A stretch of DNA of 33,610 nucleotides, taken from contig DYFQ01000018.1 in assembly GCA_020725105.1 (NCBI GenBank), forward strand, positions 16,671-50,280, given 5' to 3'. A program made the position numbers and the translations under genes. The notes below the pieces were generated by a model, which was not told the DNA's origin, did not search any database, and saw nothing but the letters and a program-made list of their open reading frames with translations. The stretch comes from Symbiobacterium thermophilum (lineage in GTDB: Bacteria > Bacillota > Sulfobacillia > DYFQ01). Shown here in pieces: positions 7,098 to 26,872 of the stretch (within the stretch, counting starts at the first letter, position 1; every line of letters starts with the position of its first letter).

Positions 7098-8381
7098 CTA
7101 CCGGCGCCAGAGGTCTTTCAGGGCCCGCCAGGCCCGGTCCAGGCGCCCCATGGGTGACAGCCGCCCCAGTTCCACGTGGCTTTCGTCGCCGGGCTCGGGA
7201 ACGGGGATGATCCCCAGCGGCGTCTGGCCACCCATGTAGTGGTCGGTCCGGGCCACAAACTCCGAGCCGTCGGGCCGCCTGACGGACAGTTCCAGGTAGA
7301 AGCTGGCGTCCAGCAGGGCGTGGCGCAGTTCCTCCCGGCCGTTCACGAGCCGGTCGTTGACGGTCAGGATCACGTCGCCCGACCCCAGGCCCAGGCCGGC
7401 GGCCGGGGAACAGGGCATCACGTCCAGCAGTCGCACGCCTCGCTCGGGCGGGACGAAATAGGGCCGGCCGTGCTGCTCCCGCCCCATGCCGACGCGAACG
7501 ACCCACTCGTGGCCGAGCGGCGCGAACAGGGCGGCTACCCACCAGAAGGGCGCGGAGCGGGAGGCCACGACGGCCAGCGCGAGCAGGCTCACGCTGTACA
7601 GCATCAGGTAGAGGGCGCTTTTCCGCACCCTTACCTTGGGCGGCACCGTCAGCGCCAGGTCCCCGTAGCCCAGAATGGCGGCCACCGGAAGCAGGGTGTA
7701 CACCACGTCCGGGCGGTCGGCCAGTTCCGCGACGGGCCGGATGAGAGGCCACCACTCGGGCATCTCGATGAGGCCTTCCAGCAACTCGCGGTGGGGCACG
7801 GCGATGAGGAACAGCACCGCCAGGGGCAACGGCCAGAACTTCTGCAGGCTGAAGCCGCCCACCACCCGGTTGAACCGGTCGCGCACATAGAGGGGCGTGG
7901 CGTGGGCGGCGCCGCTCATCCAGATGAGCAGGCTCTCGATGATGTGCAGCACGGCCACGAGGCCCATGAGCCCGGGGATGTTGACCTGGGGCCAGCCGAC
8001 CACCAGCGAGGTCAGCGCCACCAGGCCCCCGGCGTAGGCGAAGCAGACGAACCTGGGGTGAACCAGCATCAACACCACGGCCACCAGGAGGACGTAGCCG
8101 ATGCCGGTCCCCTCGAGGGACACCCCGACCACCGCCATGACCAGGCTGCCGGTGATACCGGCCACCGCCCCGGAGGCAAACGCCAGCAACGTGCGCTGGA
8201 AGACGGTGGACTTGGCCGCGCCGTAGATGCGCCGCTCCAAGTCGTGGATCCGGCCGTACTGCATGGCGGTGATGCCCACCAGGATCCAGAAGAACAACGA
8301 GTTGGACGGGCTGAAGACGAACTGCGGAATCGTCTTCACCACGGCCAACCCGATATCAAGCCACGGATAAAGCACGATCAA
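7098..8381 (-). CDS. Polytopic membrane protein with C-terminal PDZ domain (MinJ-like)
   Basis: 427-residue integral membrane protein. The first 300 or so residues hold about eight hydrophobic segments. A soluble PDZ domain follows at roughly 320-375, with the pattern [29 protein letters not shown], and then a charged tail. This layout matches B. subtilis MinJ, a topological factor linking DivIVA to MinD at division sites; in B. subtilis minJ also lies near ftsEX and ctpB. Function as a division-site or envelope scaffold is inferred from this layout and context. The TTG start is 19 bases after the ctpA stop, with GGCGGTGA upstream; a GTG two codons later is possible. It belongs to the ftsE-ftsX-M23-ctpA-PDZ-uvrB series. 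Confidence 0.82.
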
Positions 8382-8399: not shown

Positions 8400-9656
8400 C
8401 TAGCCCCCGCGGATCCGCTCGGCCAGGAGTTCCAGGGCCTTGCGAAGCTGGACGTTGCGGGGATCGTCGGGATCGTCCAGGCGGACCCGGCCTTCGTCCG
8501 GCCCGGCTTTTTCGTTCTCGACCACCACGTGGGGCTCGATGCCCTGACCGTGAATGGTGTGGCCGTTAGGCGTCAGGTACTGGGCGGTCGTGATCCGTAC
8601 GGCGGTCGGTTGCTCCAGGTAGTTCAACTCCCAGACGCGCTGGACCGACGCCTTGCCGAAGGTCCTGGTGCCGACCAGGAGCCCCGCCTCCCGGTCCTTG
8701 ATGGCGCCGGCGACGATTTCCGACGCGCTGGCCGAGTTCTCGTTCACCAGCACCACCAGGGGGATCCCCAGCCCGCCACCGCTGGCCCGGTAGACCTTGG
8801 GCGCGGCCCCGCGCTCCACCACCTGCACTATGGGGCCGGCAGGCAGAAGGAGGTCGGCGAACTCGATGGAGACGTCGAGGTAGCCGCCGGGGTTGGAACG
8901 CAGGTCCAGGAGCAGGCCCTTGGGCTGGGCCTGCTGCGCGGCCTGCCACGCCGCCCGGAACTGGGCCATGGTCTTCTCGTTGAACATCATGAGCCTGATA
9001 TAGGCCACCGGCCCGGCCTCGGTCCGGAAGACCTTGTGGCTGACGGTGGGAATCTCGATGACGGCCCGCTCGATGGTGACGTCGAAGTCCTCCACACCGG
9101 CCCGGCGGATGGTCAGGGTCACCTTGGTGCCCGGCTTCCCGCGGATCATCGTGGCGACCTCGTCCACCTTGCGGCCGACGACGTCCTGCCCGTCGACCTT
9201 GACGATGCGGTCACCCTCTCGCAGGCCCGCCTTGTCGGCGGGAGTGCCGTCAAACGGGGCGACGACCACCACGTGACCGTCCTTGGCTTCAATCTGCATC
9301 CCCACGCCCGCGTAGAGGCCCGCGCCCTCGATGCGCATCTCCTCGAACAGGCGGGCGTCGAGGTAGTACGAATATGGGTCGCCAACGGCCTCCACCAGAC
9401 CGCGGGTAGCGCCCTCGATCAGCTTGCCCGGGTCGGAAACGGCCTCTGGATCGACGTACTCCTGTTGCAGCCGCTTGAGGACGTCAAAGAACTGGCGCCA
9501 TTCGGGGGTGTCCAGGTCGGCCGGTGCCGAGGTCAGATACGGGCTAAGGTAGGAGCGCGCCCAGGGTATCCGTCCGGTGGCCATCCCCCAGGTCACGGTG
9601 TTGGTCAACAAGAGCATGACGATGAGCCAGAGGACGGCCGTGCGACGCCGCATCAT
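8400..9656 (-). CDS. ctpA: S41 C-terminal processing protease (CtpA/CtpB family)
   Basis: 418-residue secreted or membrane-anchored serine protease. One N-terminal hydrophobic anchor (residues about 6-27) is followed by a helical region, a PDZ domain at about 115-190 and the S41 catalytic core. The Ser/Lys dyad fits Ser310 in NENSASASE and Lys335 in TFGKASVQ; their 25-residue spacing equals that of CtpB in B. subtilis. In spore-formers CtpB cleaves SpoIVFA and SpoIIQ during sigma-K activation. Other family members cut division or cell-wall regulators, and the neighbours here (ftsEX, M23 peptidase, PDZ scaffold) allow either role. The tandem ATG at 9656/9653 is used because upstream sequence in frame is hairpin-forming and lacks a signal anchor. 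Confidence 0.93.
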   Translation of the reverse strand: MMRRRTAVLWLIVMLLLTNTVTWGMATGRIPWARSYLSPYLTSAPADLDTPEWRQFFDVLKRLQQEYVDPEAVSDPGKLIEGATRGLVEAVGDPYSYYLDARLFEEMRIEGAGLYAGVGMQIEAKDGHVVVVAPFDGTPADKAGLREGDRIVKVDGQDVVGRKVDEVATMIRGKPGTKVTLTIRRAGVEDFDVTIERAVIEIPTVSHKVFRTEAGPVAYIRLMMFNEKTMAQFRAAWQAAQQAQPKGLLLDLRSNPGGYLDVSIEFADLLLPAGPIVQVVERGAAPKVYRASGGGLGIPLVVLVNENSASASEIVAGAIKDREAGLLVGTRTFGKASVQRVWELNYLEQPTAVRITTAQYLTPNGHTIHGQGIEPHVVVENEKAGPDEGRVRLDDPDDPRNVQLRKALELLAERIRGG

Positions 9657-9688
9657 GGGTCCGGTTTGCCCCTTCCCGCCCGGGTGTT

Positions 9689-9715
9689 CCCGCCGTCGCC
9701 CGGAGCGACGGCGGG
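9689..9715 (-). repeat. Perfect 11-bp inverted repeat in the ctpA leader
   Basis: CCCGCCGTCGC (9689-9699) and its exact complement (9705-9715) flank a 5-base loop, about 33-59 bases upstream of the ctpA start. No T-tract follows, so it is not a typical Rho-independent terminator. It could stabilise or regulate the ctpA mRNA leader. Confidence 0.6.
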
Positions 9716-9770
9716 GCTCCAAAACCCCAGCACCCGGCAGATGCTTGACCCTACCGGGGAACGCGCCCTC

Positions 9771-9807: not shown

Positions 9808-11034
9808 TTACCTGGGAAGCCAGCCCAGCGGGTCGACCTGTTTGCCGTCCAGCCGGACCTCGAAGTGCAGGTGCGGGCCGGTCGACAGTCCCGTGCTGCC
9901 GACCTTGGCGATGACGGTTCCCGCGGGATGGACGGTGTTGCTGACCCCCAACACCAGCCTGGACGCGTGGGCGTACAGCGTCGACACTCCGGCGCCGTGG
10001 TCCATGATGATGGTCAGCCCGTAACCGCCGAGCGGGCCCGAGTAGATCACGCGGCCCAGCGCGGCCGCGTAGATGTTGGCGCCGGTGGGAGCGGCGATGT
10101 CGAGCCCTTTGTGCATCCGGTACTGCCGGATGACGGGGTGGAAGCGCATGCCAAAGGGCGACGTGATCCGCCGGTACTGCGGGTCGAGCGGCCACCGGAG
10201 CTTGATCTGGGAGCGGTCGGTGGGCAGGCCGCCCAGCCGGGCCATCTCCTTTTGCAGCGCGGCGATGTCCTTGGAGATGCTGTCCTCGAGGCGTTCCTGC
10301 TCCTCGATGGCGCGCAGGTACTCCTCCGCCTGGCTCTGCAGGGAAGCCAGGGTCCGCTCGCGCTGGAGCTTGTCCGCTTCGAAGCTGGCCTTCTTGAACC
10401 TGGTCTCGGCGGCCAGGCGTTCGACACGGGCGCGGGCCTCCTCCAGTTCCGCCTTGCGCCGGGCGACCGTCTCGCGATAGGCGTCGGCCTCGCGCATCAA
10501 CTGGATGTCGGCGCCGATGATCTGCTGCAGGACGGAAAGGCGGGTGAGAAAGTCGGAAAAGGTCGTCGCGGAAAAGAGGACCTCGAAGTAGCTGACGGTA
10601 CCCAGTTCGTAGGCGGCGCGGACCCTGCCCCGCAAAAGCTCGATGCGGCGGGCGAGCTGGGCCTCGGCCGCCCGCAGTTCCCGGGTGATGGCTTCCACCT
10701 GCCGGCGGGCTTCAGCCAGTTGCTGTTCGAGAACGGCCAATTCCCGCTCGGTGAGGTGCAGCCGCTTCTCGATGCGCTGCAGCTCCGAGAAGACGCTGCG
10801 CTCCCGCTGCTTGGTCTGCTGGAGCAGCTGGCGGTGGCGGTCCAGTTGCCGCTGGATCCGGAGCAGGTCGTCCTGCTTTTCCTTCAACTGGTCGGAGACG
10901 CGGCGCAGGTCGTCCGCGGCCGAGGCTCCGGCCGGCGCCGCCCGGAAGCCGGTGAACAGGCCCGCCACAAAGACAACGGCCAGTCCCAGGGCCAGGACGC
11001 GACTGACTTTCCGGGCTCCGCCAGACACCGCCAT
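9808..11034 (-). CDS. Secreted coiled-coil M23 murein hydrolase (FtsEX-associated, EnvC/PcsB-like)
   Basis: 408-residue exported protein: an N-terminal signal or anchor (about 10-35), a long charged coiled coil (about 38-260) and a C-terminal M23/LytM domain. Zinc and catalytic residues are visible in MHKGLD, YAHAS and HLHFE, so the peptidase should be active, unlike E. coli EnvC whose LytM domain is degenerate. Position directly after ftsX suggests that FtsEX gates its septal hydrolase activity, as FtsEX does for EnvC, PcsB or CwlO. Its start is 60 bp after the ftsX stop. The ATG at 11034 is close to the GAGGTGG motif, so the GTG two codons later (11028), with better spacing, may be the true start. 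Confidence 0.9.
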   Translation of the reverse strand: MAVSGGARKVSRVLALGLAVVFVAGLFTGFRAAPAGASAADDLRRVSDQLKEKQDDLLRIQRQLDRHRQLLQQTKQRERSVFSELQRIEKRLHLTERELAVLEQQLAEARRQVEAITRELRAAEAQLARRIELLRGRVRAAYELGTVSYFEVLFSATTFSDFLTRLSVLQQIIGADIQLMREADAYRETVARRKAELEEARARVERLAAETRFKKASFEADKLQRERTLASLQSQAEEYLRAIEEQERLEDSISKDIAALQKEMARLGGLPTDRSQIKLRWPLDPQYRRITSPFGMRFHPVIRQYRMHKGLDIAAPTGANIYAAALGRVIYSGPLGGYGLTIIMDHGAGVSTLYAHASRLVLGVSNTVHPAGTVIAKVGSTGLSTGPHLHFEVRLDGKQVDPLGWLPR

Positions 11035-11093
11035 CCACCTCACGACCGGGACCCGGCCACCCTCCGGCGGGGAGCCGGCCCTCTCGGATCCGG

Positions 11094-11983
11094 CTACACT
11101 CGCAAGAAGCGCCGCAACGAAACCGTGCTGCCAACGGCGCCGAGGAACGCGCCCAGGACCACCAGGACCAGGTTCGTCCGACGGACGAACTCCCTGGCCG
11201 CCTCCCCCGCCAGCAGCGGCAGGAACGGAACCACCCGCTCCGCCTGCTCCACCAGCCACGGATACCCCTGCCAGGTGAGGCCGGCGGTCAGGCCCGCCCC
11301 CAGCATCCCGAGGAACAGGCCTTCCAGCAGGAAGGGCCACCTGATGAACCAATCGGTGGCCCCGACCAGTTTCATGATGCCGATCTCTTCCCGGCGGGCG
11401 AAGACGGTGAGCCGCACGGTGTTGGAGATGATGAGCACCGTGGCGACGGTCAAAAGCGCCACCAGGCCCAACCCGATCCAGCGGACAAACCTGGTGACGC
11501 TGAAGAGCTTGTCCACGAACACCTGGCCGTAGTTGACCTCGGCCACGCCCTGGAGCCGGCTGATGACCTCCGCCGTGGGCACCACCTGCTCGGGCCGGGC
11601 CACGGCCACCTCCAGGCTGTCACGGAGGGGGTTCATCTCCTCCACCGCGTCCAGGAGTTCGCGCCGGCTGCCGAACTGCTCCCGCAGCCGTTCCAGAGCC
11701 TCCTCGCGGGTCACCACCTCGACGGAGGCGACCCCCTCCAGCCCGGCCACGGCCTTGGCCAGCGCCTCGCGGGTCTCGGGAGTCGCGTCCTCGGCGATGA
11801 ATACCCTGATCTGCACCTGGGCCTCGACCGCGGCGGCCAGGTGGTCCAGGTTTCCGGCCACCAGGAGCGTGCTCGCCAGCACGGTCAGGCACACGGCCAC
11901 GGTGGTGACGGAGGCCAGGCTCATGAGGGAGTTCCTGCGCAGGCTGGCCAGGGCTTCACGGGTACCGTAGGCCAGGGCGCGGA

Positions 11984-11987
<4 letters not shown>
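11094..11987 (-). CDS. ftsX: Cell-division ABC transporter-like permease FtsX
   Basis: 297-residue FtsX. It has an N-terminal transmembrane segment (about 20-45), an extracellular domain (about 50-160) and three C-terminal transmembrane segments, the standard FtsX topology. With FtsE it forms a transmembrane signalling complex that activates peptidoglycan hydrolases rather than transporting a solute. Its GTG start overlaps the ftsE stop by four bases (GTGA), so the two are translationally coupled. The next gene encodes the likely hydrolase partner. In B. subtilis FtsEX is needed for normal entry into sporulation, which fits the promoter found upstream of ftsE here. Confidence 0.96.
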
Positions 11988-12718
<731 letters not shown>

Positions 12719-13131
12719 CGGCCGTCACCCTAGCCTTCCTGGCGGGAGCGAGGCTTCAGCTCCGGGCCAACAAAAACGCGGCGACTTCCGCCTATCCCGG
12801 CTGAAGCCCCCGCACTGGCCGCCAGATAGCCGTTTTCGCCGCAGGCGAATCGACACGGCCCGCGCGATAGCCACCTTCACTGGATACGGGTGCCGGTTAT
12901 TCGACATAAAACACGGTTTTTCCTGCGACTCACAGCGCTCTCCGTCGCAAACCTTGACGGGCGTGCTGCAAGCCAAGGCTTCGATCCGCGCCAACCCGGC
13001 GGGCATCTACGATCGAGACCTGGTCATGCAGATTATGGACGAGCAGCGGCGAAACGACGAACTGCGCCGGCACGCCGCCACGTAACAAGGTCCAGGCCAG
13101 CGGAAAGAGGGTTTCGTGCGACTCCCCGGGT
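12719..13131. other. 413-bp gap upstream of ftsE: sigma-H promoter, otherwise mostly featureless
   Basis: The gap between the transketolase and ftsE genes holds a sigma-H-like promoter (12899-12926) facing ftsE. A possible short plus-strand reading frame (12954-13085) ends ASIRANPAGIYDRDLV plus a charged helix; it has no visible ribosome-binding site and I do not call it a gene. A minus-strand frame covers 12725-13006 but shows biased, shadow-like composition. The 5' UTR from the sigma-H start to ftsE would be about 170 bases. No terminator was found. Confidence 0.5.
12899..12926 (-). promoter_or_regulatory. Sigma-H-type promoter upstream of ftsEX
   Basis: Minus strand: -35 GCAGGAAAA (12926-12918), 12-base spacer, -10 GTCGAAT (12905-12899). 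This fits the B. subtilis sigma-H consensus RNAGGAWWW-N11/12-RNNGAAT at every defined position. The same -10 also contains TGTCGAA, a Spo0A-box core, so overlap of the two is possible. The predicted transcript reads into ftsE about 180 bp downstream. Confidence 0.6.
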
Positions 13132-14118
13132 TCAGTCAGCCTTCCTCCGCAGCACCCGGCGGGCGGCGGAGACGATGTCGTCGGGGGTCAGCCCGCGGGC
13201 CTTCAGCAGGTCCTTCCAGGTGCCGGACTCGCCGAACACGTCCTTGATGCCCACCCGTTCCATGGGCGTGGGCCGGCGTTCGCCCAGGACTTCCGCCACC
13301 GCGGAGCCCAGGCCGCCGATGACGCTGTGCTCCTCGCAGGTCACCACGGCGCCCGTCCGGGCGGCGGCCGCGCAGACCGTCTCCTCGTCCAGGGGCTTCA
13401 CCGTGGAGACGTTGAGCACCAGGGCCTCGATGCCCTCGGCCGCCAGCCGCTCGGCGGCGGCCAGGGCCTGGCTGACCATGATGCCGCAGGCCATCAGGGC
13501 CACGTCCCGGCCCTCCCGTAGGACGGTGGCCCGGCCCAGCCGGAACCGGTAGCCCTCGGCGTCGAAGATCACCGGCACGCTGGGCCGGCCCATGCGGAGA
13601 TAGACCGGGCCGTGGTGGGCGTGGATGGCCCGCACGGCCTGGGCGGTCTCCACCGCGTCGGCGGGCACCACGACGGTGAGGTTGGGCAGGCTCCGCATGA
13701 GGGCGATGTCCTCCACGGTCTGGTGGGACCCGCCGTCCTCCCCGACCGTGACGCCGGCGTGGCTCAGGCAGATCTTGACGTTGAGGGCCGGGTAGGCGAT
13801 GGAGTTCCGCAGCGGTTCAAAGGCCCGGCCGGTGCCGAAGACGGCGAAGGTGGAGACGAAGGGCTTCTTGCCCGCCAGGGCCAGGCCGGCGGCGATGCCC
13901 ATCAGGTTCTGCTCGGCGATGCCCACCTCGAAGAAGCGCTCGGGAAAGCGCTCGGCGAACTTGATGGTCTTGGTGGACTTGGCCAGGTCGGCGTCGAGGA
14001 CCACGATGTCCGGGTCCTCGGCCCCCAGCTGGGCCAGGGCGTCGCCGTAGGCGTCCCGGGTGGCCACGGCCCGGGGCGGCGACTCGGTCTTGGCCAGCAG
14101 CAGGCGGGGCCCGTCCAC
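13132..14118 (-). CDS. Transketolase, C-terminal subunit
   Basis: About 328 residues covering the pyrimidine-binding and C-terminal domains of transketolase. With the adjacent N-terminal subunit it should form a complete thiamine-diphosphate enzyme that moves two-carbon units in the pentose phosphate pathway. The ThDP-activating glutamate lies in GIAEQNLMGIAAG, after a DADLAKST motif. The HAGVTVGEDGGSHQ segment and a C-terminal transketolase/pyruvate-ferredoxin-type domain (EEHSVIGGLGSAVAE) follow. The first possible GTG (14124) overlaps the upstream stop as GTGA. The GTG at 14118 has better spacing (7) from GGGGAGG and was chosen. DXP synthase is excluded because the protein is split and lacks that family's longer N-terminal domain. 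Confidence 0.93.
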   Translation of the reverse strand: MDGPRLLLAKTESPPRAVATRDAYGDALAQLGAEDPDIVVLDADLAKSTKTIKFAERFPERFFEVGIAEQNLMGIAAGLALAGKKPFVSTFAVFGTGRAFEPLRNSIAYPALNVKICLSHAGVTVGEDGGSHQTVEDIALMRSLPNLTVVVPADAVETAQAVRAIHAHHGPVYLRMGRPSVPVIFDAEGYRFRLGRATVLREGRDVALMACGIMVSQALAAAERLAAEGIEALVLNVSTVKPLDEETVCAAAARTGAVVTCEEHSVIGGLGSAVAEVLGERRPTPMERVGIKDVFGESGTWKDLLKARGLTPDDIVSAARRVLRRKAD

Positions 14119-14120
14119 GG

Positions 14121-14996
14121 TCACGCCTCCCCGTCCAGCGGCGGCGGCGGCTCGAGGCCGGCCGCCGCGGCCCAAGCGTCGAGTTCCGCCAGGGCCTGGC
14201 GCAACTGCTCCGGCGAGGCCGGCTTGCCGTGCCAGTCCAGTTCGTGCTCCATGAAGGACACGCCCTTGCCCTTTACCGTGTGGGCGATGATCATGGTCGG
14301 CCGTCCGGCCGTCCGGCGGGCCTCGGCCAGCGCGTCGAGGATCTGGACCAGGTCGTGGCCGTCCACCTCCACCACGTGCCAGCCAAAGGCGCGGAACTTG
14401 TCGTCCAGGGGTTCGGGGTTCATGATCTCCCGGACCGGACCGTCCGTCTCCAGCCCGTTGAAGTCGAGAAGGGCGCACAGGTTGTCCAGGCGGAAGTGGG
14501 CGGCGGCCATGGCGGCCTCCCAGACCATCCCCTCCTGGCACTCGCCGTCGCCGATGACGGTGTAGACGCGCCACGGCCGGCGGTCGAGCTTCCCGGCCAG
14601 CGCCATTCCCACCGCGATGGAGATGCCGTTACCCAGCGAGCCGGTGGCCGCCTCGACGCCCGGGGTCTTCAGGTCGGGGTGCCCCTGCAGGAAGCTGCCG
14701 AGCTGGCGCAGGGTGAGGAGCTCCCGGCGGTCGAAGAACCCGCGCTCGGCCAGGGCGGCGAACTGGGCCGGGCAGCCATGGCCCTTGGAGAGGACGAACC
14801 GGTCCCGTTCGGGCCAGTCGGGGCACCGGGGGTCCACGCGCAGCTCGTGAAAGTAAAGGGCGGCCATGATCTCCGCCATCGACAGGGAACTGGAGGGATG
14901 ACCCGAGGCGGCCCTGGTGGTCATGATCAGGCTGTGGCGGCGGATCGTGTAGGCGTGGGTCTGGAGCCGCTTGATGAGGTCCGGGGGATAGCTCAC
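14121..14996 (-). CDS. Transketolase, N-terminal subunit
   Basis: 291 residues covering the ThDP diphosphate-binding domain of a split transketolase. SGHPSSSLS near residue 31 and SKGHGCPAQFA carry cofactor-contact residues. The diphosphate/Mg motif runs from GDGECQEG to LLDFNG. The C-terminus has HTVKGKGVSFME. Two-subunit transketolases like this are common in Archaea and clostridia. The GTG start overlaps the wecG stop by four bases (GTGA). An AAGGAGG lies about 13 bases upstream and a closer AAGG is also present. The reading frame continues upstream but that part is Gly/Arg/Ala-rich shadow of wecG. It is coupled to the C-terminal subunit downstream. Confidence 0.94.
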   Translation of the reverse strand: MSYPPDLIKRLQTHAYTIRRHSLIMTTRAASGHPSSSLSMAEIMAALYFHELRVDPRCPDWPERDRFVLSKGHGCPAQFAALAERGFFDRRELLTLRQLGSFLQGHPDLKTPGVEAATGSLGNGISIAVGMALAGKLDRRPWRVYTVIGDGECQEGMVWEAAMAAAHFRLDNLCALLDFNGLETDGPVREIMNPEPLDDKFRAFGWHVVEVDGHDLVQILDALAEARRTAGRPTMIIAHTVKGKGVSFMEHELDWHGKPASPEQLRQALAELDAWAAAAGLEPPPPLDGEA

Positions 14997-26335: not shown

Positions 26336-26872
26336 CTAGGCTTCAGGCTCGATGAGCCCGTACTTGCCGTCCCGCCGGCGGTACACGACGTTGATCGTCT
26401 CGGTATCGACGTTGGTGAAGACGTAGAAGTCGTGGCCCAGGAGGTTCATCTCCATCACGGCCTCTTCGGGGCTGATCGGCTTCAGGTGGAACCGCTTGGT
26501 CTTGACGATGGGCGGCTCCTCGGGTTCTTCGTCCTCCGCCATGCCCTCGGCCCAGGGCTTCACGCCGCCCAGCTTCTGAAACCGTTTCCAGAGGCGGGTC
26601 TTGTACTTGTCGACCTGCTTGCCGAGCTTGTCGACGACAAGGTCGATGGCGGCATAGACGTTGTCCGTCTCTTCCTGGCCGCGCAGGAGAACCCCGTTGA
26701 GGGGTACCGTGACCTCTACGATGTGCCGGCCCCGCTCCACGCTCAGGTTGACCTGGGCCGGCAGGGAAAGGGGGGTCTCGAAATATCGCTCGAGTCGCGA
26801 GAGCTTCTTCTCAAGGTACCGCTTGATCTGCGGCGTGACGGAGATGTTCTTGCCGCGAACCACGATCTGCAC
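26336..26872 (-). CDS. hpf: Long-form ribosome hibernation promoting factor
   Basis: 178-residue long HPF. The N-terminal domain (1-about 100, MQIVVRGKNISVTPQIKRYLEKKL) binds the 30S decoding region. A charged linker (about 105-120) follows. The C-terminal domain (about 122-178, KTKRFHLKPISPEEAVMEMNLLGHDFYVFTN) dimerises ribosomes into inactive 100S particles. The length and both domains match the B. subtilis protein, which is expressed in stationary phase and stress. GTG start with GGGAGA about nine bases upstream. The 365-bp upstream region contains a candidate promoter, a 17-bp palindrome and a terminator. Confidence 0.97.
   Translation of the reverse strand: MQIVVRGKNISVTPQIKRYLEKKLSRLERYFETPLSLPAQVNLSVERGRHIVEVTVPLNGVLLRGQEETDNVYAAIDLVVDKLGKQVDKYKTRLWKRFQKLGGVKPWAEGMAEDEEPEEPPIVKTKRFHLKPISPEEAVMEMNLLGHDFYVFTNVDTETINVVYRRRDGKYGLIEPEA

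Follow-up and report, generated by a model that had tools for sequence, protein, structure and literature searches.

The 413-bp gap upstream of ftsE in Symbiobacterium thermophilum carries an element that is likely to be a sigma-H promoter, one that would place an ftsE-ftsX-M23 hydrolase-S41 protease gene set under the transition-phase sigma factor, with transcription itself being inferred. The element is located on the minus strand at 12926-12899 of the window, by which we mean the whole 33,610-nucleotide stretch of DNA that was analyzed, and consists of the -35 sequence GCAGGAAAA, a spacer of 12 nucleotides and the -10 sequence GTCGAATAA (the minus strand over 12897-12926 reads GCAGGAAAAACCGTGTTTTATGTCGAATAA). 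It sits between a transketolase-family gene and ftsE and points toward the latter. The promoter, its flanks and the genes that it would serve are as follows.

13132-14574, minus strand: transketolase-family gene, the other border of the gap
12918-12926, minus strand: -35 element GCAGGAAAA of the putative sigma-H promoter (sequence, genome pattern search, class conservation)
12900-12906, minus strand: Spo0A-box core TGTCGAA, overlapping the -10 element (sequence; core as in PMC3485338; association with Spo0A)
12899-12905, minus strand: -10 element GTCGAAT (sequence; conservation of GTCGAA at ftsE sites in 106 genomes)
12892, minus strand: predicted transcription start about 7 nucleotides past the -10 element, inferred from sigma-H promoter geometry and unmapped
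12719-12892, minus strand: predicted 5' leader of about 174 nucleotides
11984-12718, minus strand: ftsE, cell-division ABC ATPase with a TTG start; the best solved relatives are the FtsE structures 6z4w and 6z63
11094-11987, minus strand: ftsX, with an FtsX extracellular domain
9808-11352, minus strand: PcsB/CwlO-type coiled-coil M23 peptidase (coordinates are those of the open reading frame; translation probably starts below 11094)
8400-9722, minus strand: S41 PDZ protease of the ctpA/ctpB type
7098-8381, minus strand: PDZ-domain protein, the last gene of the cluster

A first-pass annotation of this DNA, made from sequence alone, had proposed that the site matches every defined base of the sigma-H consensus, that it lies in an otherwise G+C-rich gap, and that it faces ftsE. 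All three of these claims held. The sequence GCAGGAAAA conforms to the -35 consensus RNAGGAWWW, GTCGAATAA conforms to the -10 consensus RNNGAAT, and the N12 spacer falls within the 11 to 12 nucleotides expected between sigma-H elements. The site has a G+C content of 36.7% versus 63.7% for the gap and 69.7% for the window, and the ftsE start lies at 12718 on the minus strand. The annotation had also called for a genome scan, which was done by matching consensus patterns without position-weight-matrix ranking. The full pattern RNAGGAWWW-N11/12-RNNGAATWW has a single match in the whole 2.74-Mb genome, which is the ftsE site, and the reversed control pattern has none. Even the shorter pattern RNAGGAWWW-N11/12-RNNGAAT is expected by chance only about 0.0002 times in a gap of the same composition, counting both strands. 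No sigma-70-type promoter for ftsE was found in the 413-bp gap. The possibility that the gap contains a mobile-element remnant was also considered and rejected, as the genome contains no second full copy of the gap and matches just 40 bp of it elsewhere. A short plus-strand reading frame of 43 amino acids at 12954-13085 (LTGVLQAKASIRANPAGIYDRDLVMQIMDEQRRNDELRRHAAT) resembles a protein tail; it has no NCBIfam match and no above-threshold Pfam match, and may possibly be a gene remnant.

Conservation of the element was analyzed in DNA upstream of ftsE from 56 genomes of the same class, mostly from different families, whose FtsE proteins are 53-71% identical to the S. thermophilum query. The motif [AG]GGA-N14/15-GTCGAA occurs on the coding strand within 300 bp upstream of ftsE in 47 of these 56 genomes, at distances of 52-276 bp before the ftsE start, while dinucleotide shuffles predict 0.2 genomes and the antisense strand yields none. 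The GGA core is present in all 47 sites and the preceding A in 42 of them. A scan that allowed gaps of 12 to 16 nucleotides between AGGA and GTCGAA returned gaps of 14 in 33 genomes and of 15 in 14 genomes, and no others; these correspond precisely to the two spacings permitted for sigma-H. A stricter form, AGGA-N13/14-TGTCGAA, is found upstream of ftsE in 32 of the 56 genomes. Because the class genomes have little other intergenic sequence in common, this retention indicates selection on the element itself.

The element is also present at ftsE in 64 of 86 genomes of a phylum-wide sample, representing 36 of 49 families, and the strict form occurs there 61 times on the coding strand versus once on the antisense strand. 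Carriers include Thermohalobacter berrensis, Ammonifex and Thermacetogenium metagenome-assembled genomes, Firmicutes UBA911 and Thermosyntropha lipolytica, the last with the site TGTAGAAC. As a point against the promoter model, it was not seen at ftsE in a Peribacillus or in several Lachnospiraceae. In about 60 non-Firmicutes there were essentially no carriers, with one chance-like match. For the more distant genomes, ftsE starts and orthology rest on alignment only, and none of these genome counts represent independent events. With these reservations, the arrangement is likely to be old and retained over the class and a large part of the phylum, so that the alignment of relatives that the first-pass annotation had suggested as a check came out in favor of its promoter claim. 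These results also bear on the trivial explanation that the site is a functionless chance match. Scanning any window for promoters will yield some; however, a match that is unique in its genome, that has the low expectation given above and that recurs at orthologous ftsE genes with almost no antisense counterpart all but excludes this explanation.

Conservation does qualify how the site should be described. Among 106 ftsE sites the -10 hexamer is GTCGAA in 103 and thus near-invariant, while the base following GAA is A in 44 and T in only 26. "Consensus-perfect" is therefore an accurate term for the S. thermophilum genome but not for the family, in which conservation does not extend to the closing T of GAAT. 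This is weaker than a pure sigma-H -10 would predict and counts against the sigma-H reading. The last T also varies, however, in part of the SigH promoter set of C. difficile (PMC7438776).

Identification of the responsible sigma factor as SigH rests on several observations. S. thermophilum encodes SigH (G000:C57; 380 bits versus a curated cut-off of 294.8), as do 57 of 61 genomes of the class, and it also encodes a protein with a Spo0A C-terminal domain. A point against this identification is that the genome has a second SigH-like factor (L035, G000:C3:78103-78672), although it scores 172-177 bits, under the SigH cut-offs; additional SigH-like copies are present in two other class genomes (G003 and G048). 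The spoIIAA gene is a classic sigma-H target. The organism's own spoIIAA (L152, G000:C35) has a sigma-H-like AAGGAAAAT...GTCGAAG at -63 (full site GAAGGAAAATATTGCCTTCCGTCGAAG), and that of relatives has GGCAGGAAA...GGCGAAT. Within the window, the shorter consensus is matched at just one other place, by GAAGGAAAT-N11-AGCGAAT at 27159-27133 on the minus strand, which lies some 260 bp ahead of hpf (26336-26872). The corresponding gene of B. subtilis, yvyD, is controlled by both sigma-B and sigma-H (Drzewiecki et al. 1998, cited in PMC12421865). Thus, a similar motif is indeed present at undisputed SigH targets of this organism, as exemplified by spoIIAA and hpf.

The same element is widespread outside of ftsE. 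The pattern AGGA-N13/14-TGTCGAA occurs 589 times across 61 class genomes versus 99 for the reversed pattern, and sites with TGTDGAA are likewise enriched (691 versus 422). For example, in the S. thermophilum genome (L159-L164) it precedes genes for a type IV pilin-like protein, a FadR-type regulator and a peptidoglycan-binding protein, and in the relatives G018 and G030 (L165-L178) it precedes flgB (twice), divIVA, nadD, ruvC, nrdR and spoIIAB. These examples were named by eye from translations, and it is possible that the motif-bearing genes outline a class-wide regulon. An inverted repeat spanning the -35 element and spacer was also considered, having initially appeared enriched in the class (p ~0.001) and in C. 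difficile SigH promoters, but was dropped when it failed a control in which spacers were swapped between sites (p 0.16-0.49) and was not seen again in the phylum sample.

Comparison with characterized systems provides further support. In C. difficile, promoters with mapped start sites that are lowered in a sigH mutant include those of spo0A (AGGA-N14-TGTCGAAT), lplA (AGGA-N13-TGTCGAAT) and ssuA (AGGA-N13-TGTCGAAG) (PMC7438776, Table 3). Their architecture, AGGA-N13/14-TGTCGAA, is identical to that of the ftsE element, so that use of this form by SigH is established in the published record, but in C. difficile it serves other genes and, as a point against the model, no ftsE promoter appears in that SigH list. 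The B. subtilis sigma-H promoters of spoVG, spoIIA, ftsAZ and yvyD/hpf share the same -35 (RNAGGAWWW), -10 (RNNGAAT) and N11-12 spacing, and sigma-H likewise controls sporulation-entry and cell-division genes in that organism. In contrast to B. subtilis, the -10 sequence here is nearly fixed as GTCGAA with a final T that varies among relatives.

This near fixation raises the alternative that the site is solely a Spo0A operator held at a fixed place, with AGGA belonging to some other recognition unit and ftsE being transcribed by another sigma factor. In favor of this alternative, TGTCGAA is the most conserved part of the element and GAAT is not conserved. Against it, GGA is invariant in the class sites, the spacing is confined to the two values permitted for sigma-H, the same -35 stands ahead of -10 sequences at spoIIAA that are not 0A boxes, the gap offers no sigma-70-type promoter, and C. 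difficile promoters of identical form depend on sigH (PMC7438776). We consequently view an operator-only role as very unlikely.

We therefore return to the sigma-H promoter reading, in which there remains the question of what the overlap with a Spo0A box signifies. The first-pass annotation had noted that the -10 contains the Spo0A-box core TGTCGAA, which held (12906-12900, minus strand), and had suggested that Spo0A could block or tune the promoter, a suggestion that has gained support but remains unproven with the direction of any effect inferred. Spo0A contacts this core at G2, C4 and G5, and the DNA-binding domain of C. difficile Spo0A binds fragments from spo0A, lplA and ssuA (PMC3485338). 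When joined with the mapped promoters in PMC7438776, these data lead to the inference that a single heptamer can be both a SigH -10 and part of Spo0A-bound fragments in C. difficile. Furthermore, the ftsE site is present in 80 of 102 Spo0A-positive genomes but in 5 of the 15 that lack Spo0A (Fisher p 0.0008, with no correction for relatedness); the 22 Spo0A-positive genomes without it count against the promoter model. Of the five Spo0A-negative carriers, three have a completeness of only 80-84%, and CGTCGAA is found in the remaining two.

A rival explanation is that this is a plain sigma-H promoter with a fortuitous preference for GTCGAA at its -10 in this clade, in which case the resemblance to a Spo0A box would be incidental and Spo0A would be inactive at the site. 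Consistent with this, sigma-H sites at spoIIAA in the class use GGCGAAT and GATGAAT in addition to GTCGAA, the enrichment of TGTDGAA implies that C is unnecessary for this promoter class, and two Spo0A-lacking genomes that are at least 90% complete keep an AGGA..CGTCGAA site. On the other hand, the C that is nearly universal at ftsE contributes just some two thirds of the TGTN excess seen across genomes (490 for TGTCGAA versus 269 for the other three bases together), the preference for A over T after GAA is a better match to a 0A box than to GAAT, and no Spo0A-lacking genome of at least 90% completeness has the full TGTCGAA. We cannot dismiss an incidental match, but the balance tips slightly away from it. 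A role for Spo0A, while unproven, is favored because GTCGAA is near-invariant, because the site is associated with Spo0A, and because Spo0A binds the C. difficile fragments. The overlap at ftsE is thus likely to be meaningful, with no binding data available in S. thermophilum. A bolder reading, to which as a whole we give slightly less than even odds, is that at ftsEX a sigma-H -10 element and a Spo0A box merged into one near-invariant heptamer early in the evolution of spore-forming Firmicutes, that SigH would turn the FtsEX-hydrolase operon on and Spo0A~P would lower its expression through those very base pairs, and that the resulting timed pulse of wall hydrolysis would be an ancestral step of sporulation entry.

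Turning to the genes downstream of the promoter, the order ftsE-ftsX-coiled-coil M23 hydrolase-S41 protease was found behind the site in all five of the named positive genomes whose translations were inspected. It is likely that the S41 and PDZ genes are on the same transcript as ftsE, ftsX and the hydrolase gene, which is an inference made without transcript data. An RNA regulator within the 174-nucleotide leader was considered and rejected given a non-significant fold (z -0.58) and no Rfam match. The predicted leader also contains a terminator-like hairpin with a T run (12792-12780, minus strand) that is at chance level and could be either an attenuator or nothing.

By undergoing an ATP-driven conformational change, FtsEX switches a peptidoglycan hydrolase. 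FtsEX is also paired with a coiled-coil hydrolase in B. subtilis, where cells without FtsEX are delayed in entering sporulation, an effect exerted through CwlO (PMC7828314, PMC6705773). The central claim of the first-pass annotation, that a sigma-H promoter drives the ftsEX cluster, is largely supported by conservation, spacing and the presence of SigH, with transcription remaining inferred. In our model, SigH polymerase would start near 12892 at the end of growth, about 174 nucleotides before ftsE, such that slowing growth would lead SigH-RNA polymerase to raise FtsEX and the hydrolase and thereby have wall remodeling on hand at sporulation entry. Competition between Spo0A~P and SigH polymerase is possible because the -10 element is also a perfect Spo0A box. 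Such competition, for and against which the case seems to us equally strong, would produce a pulse or ceiling and not sustained expression, as rising Spo0A~P is inferred to cap expression by occluding the -10. A role for the ftsE promoter during vegetative growth also remains possible and is not excluded.

The link to sporulation in B. subtilis differs from that proposed here in that it involves protein activity, whereas here it would involve transcription of ftsEX, and the hydrolase and S41 protease genes are in the same cluster as ftsEX here. Indeed, the help that FtsEX gives to B. subtilis sporulation has so far been attributed to control of CwlO activity and not to transcription. The open-access literature searched yielded no mention of a direct sigma-H promoter for ftsEX, which does not exclude prior knowledge. 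In the absence of transcript data, ftsEX is likely to be a new and deeply conserved sigma-H target. If so, a sigma-H promoter retained at ftsE over dozens of families would bring FtsEX and its hydrolase into the core transition-phase regulon in many spore-forming bacteria. With the overlap being near-invariant, single-base changes permit a clean test of competition between Spo0A and SigH polymerase at shared promoters, and conservation of the element at ftsE in more than a hundred related bacteria suggests that there is an old and real tie between wall remodeling and spore formation.
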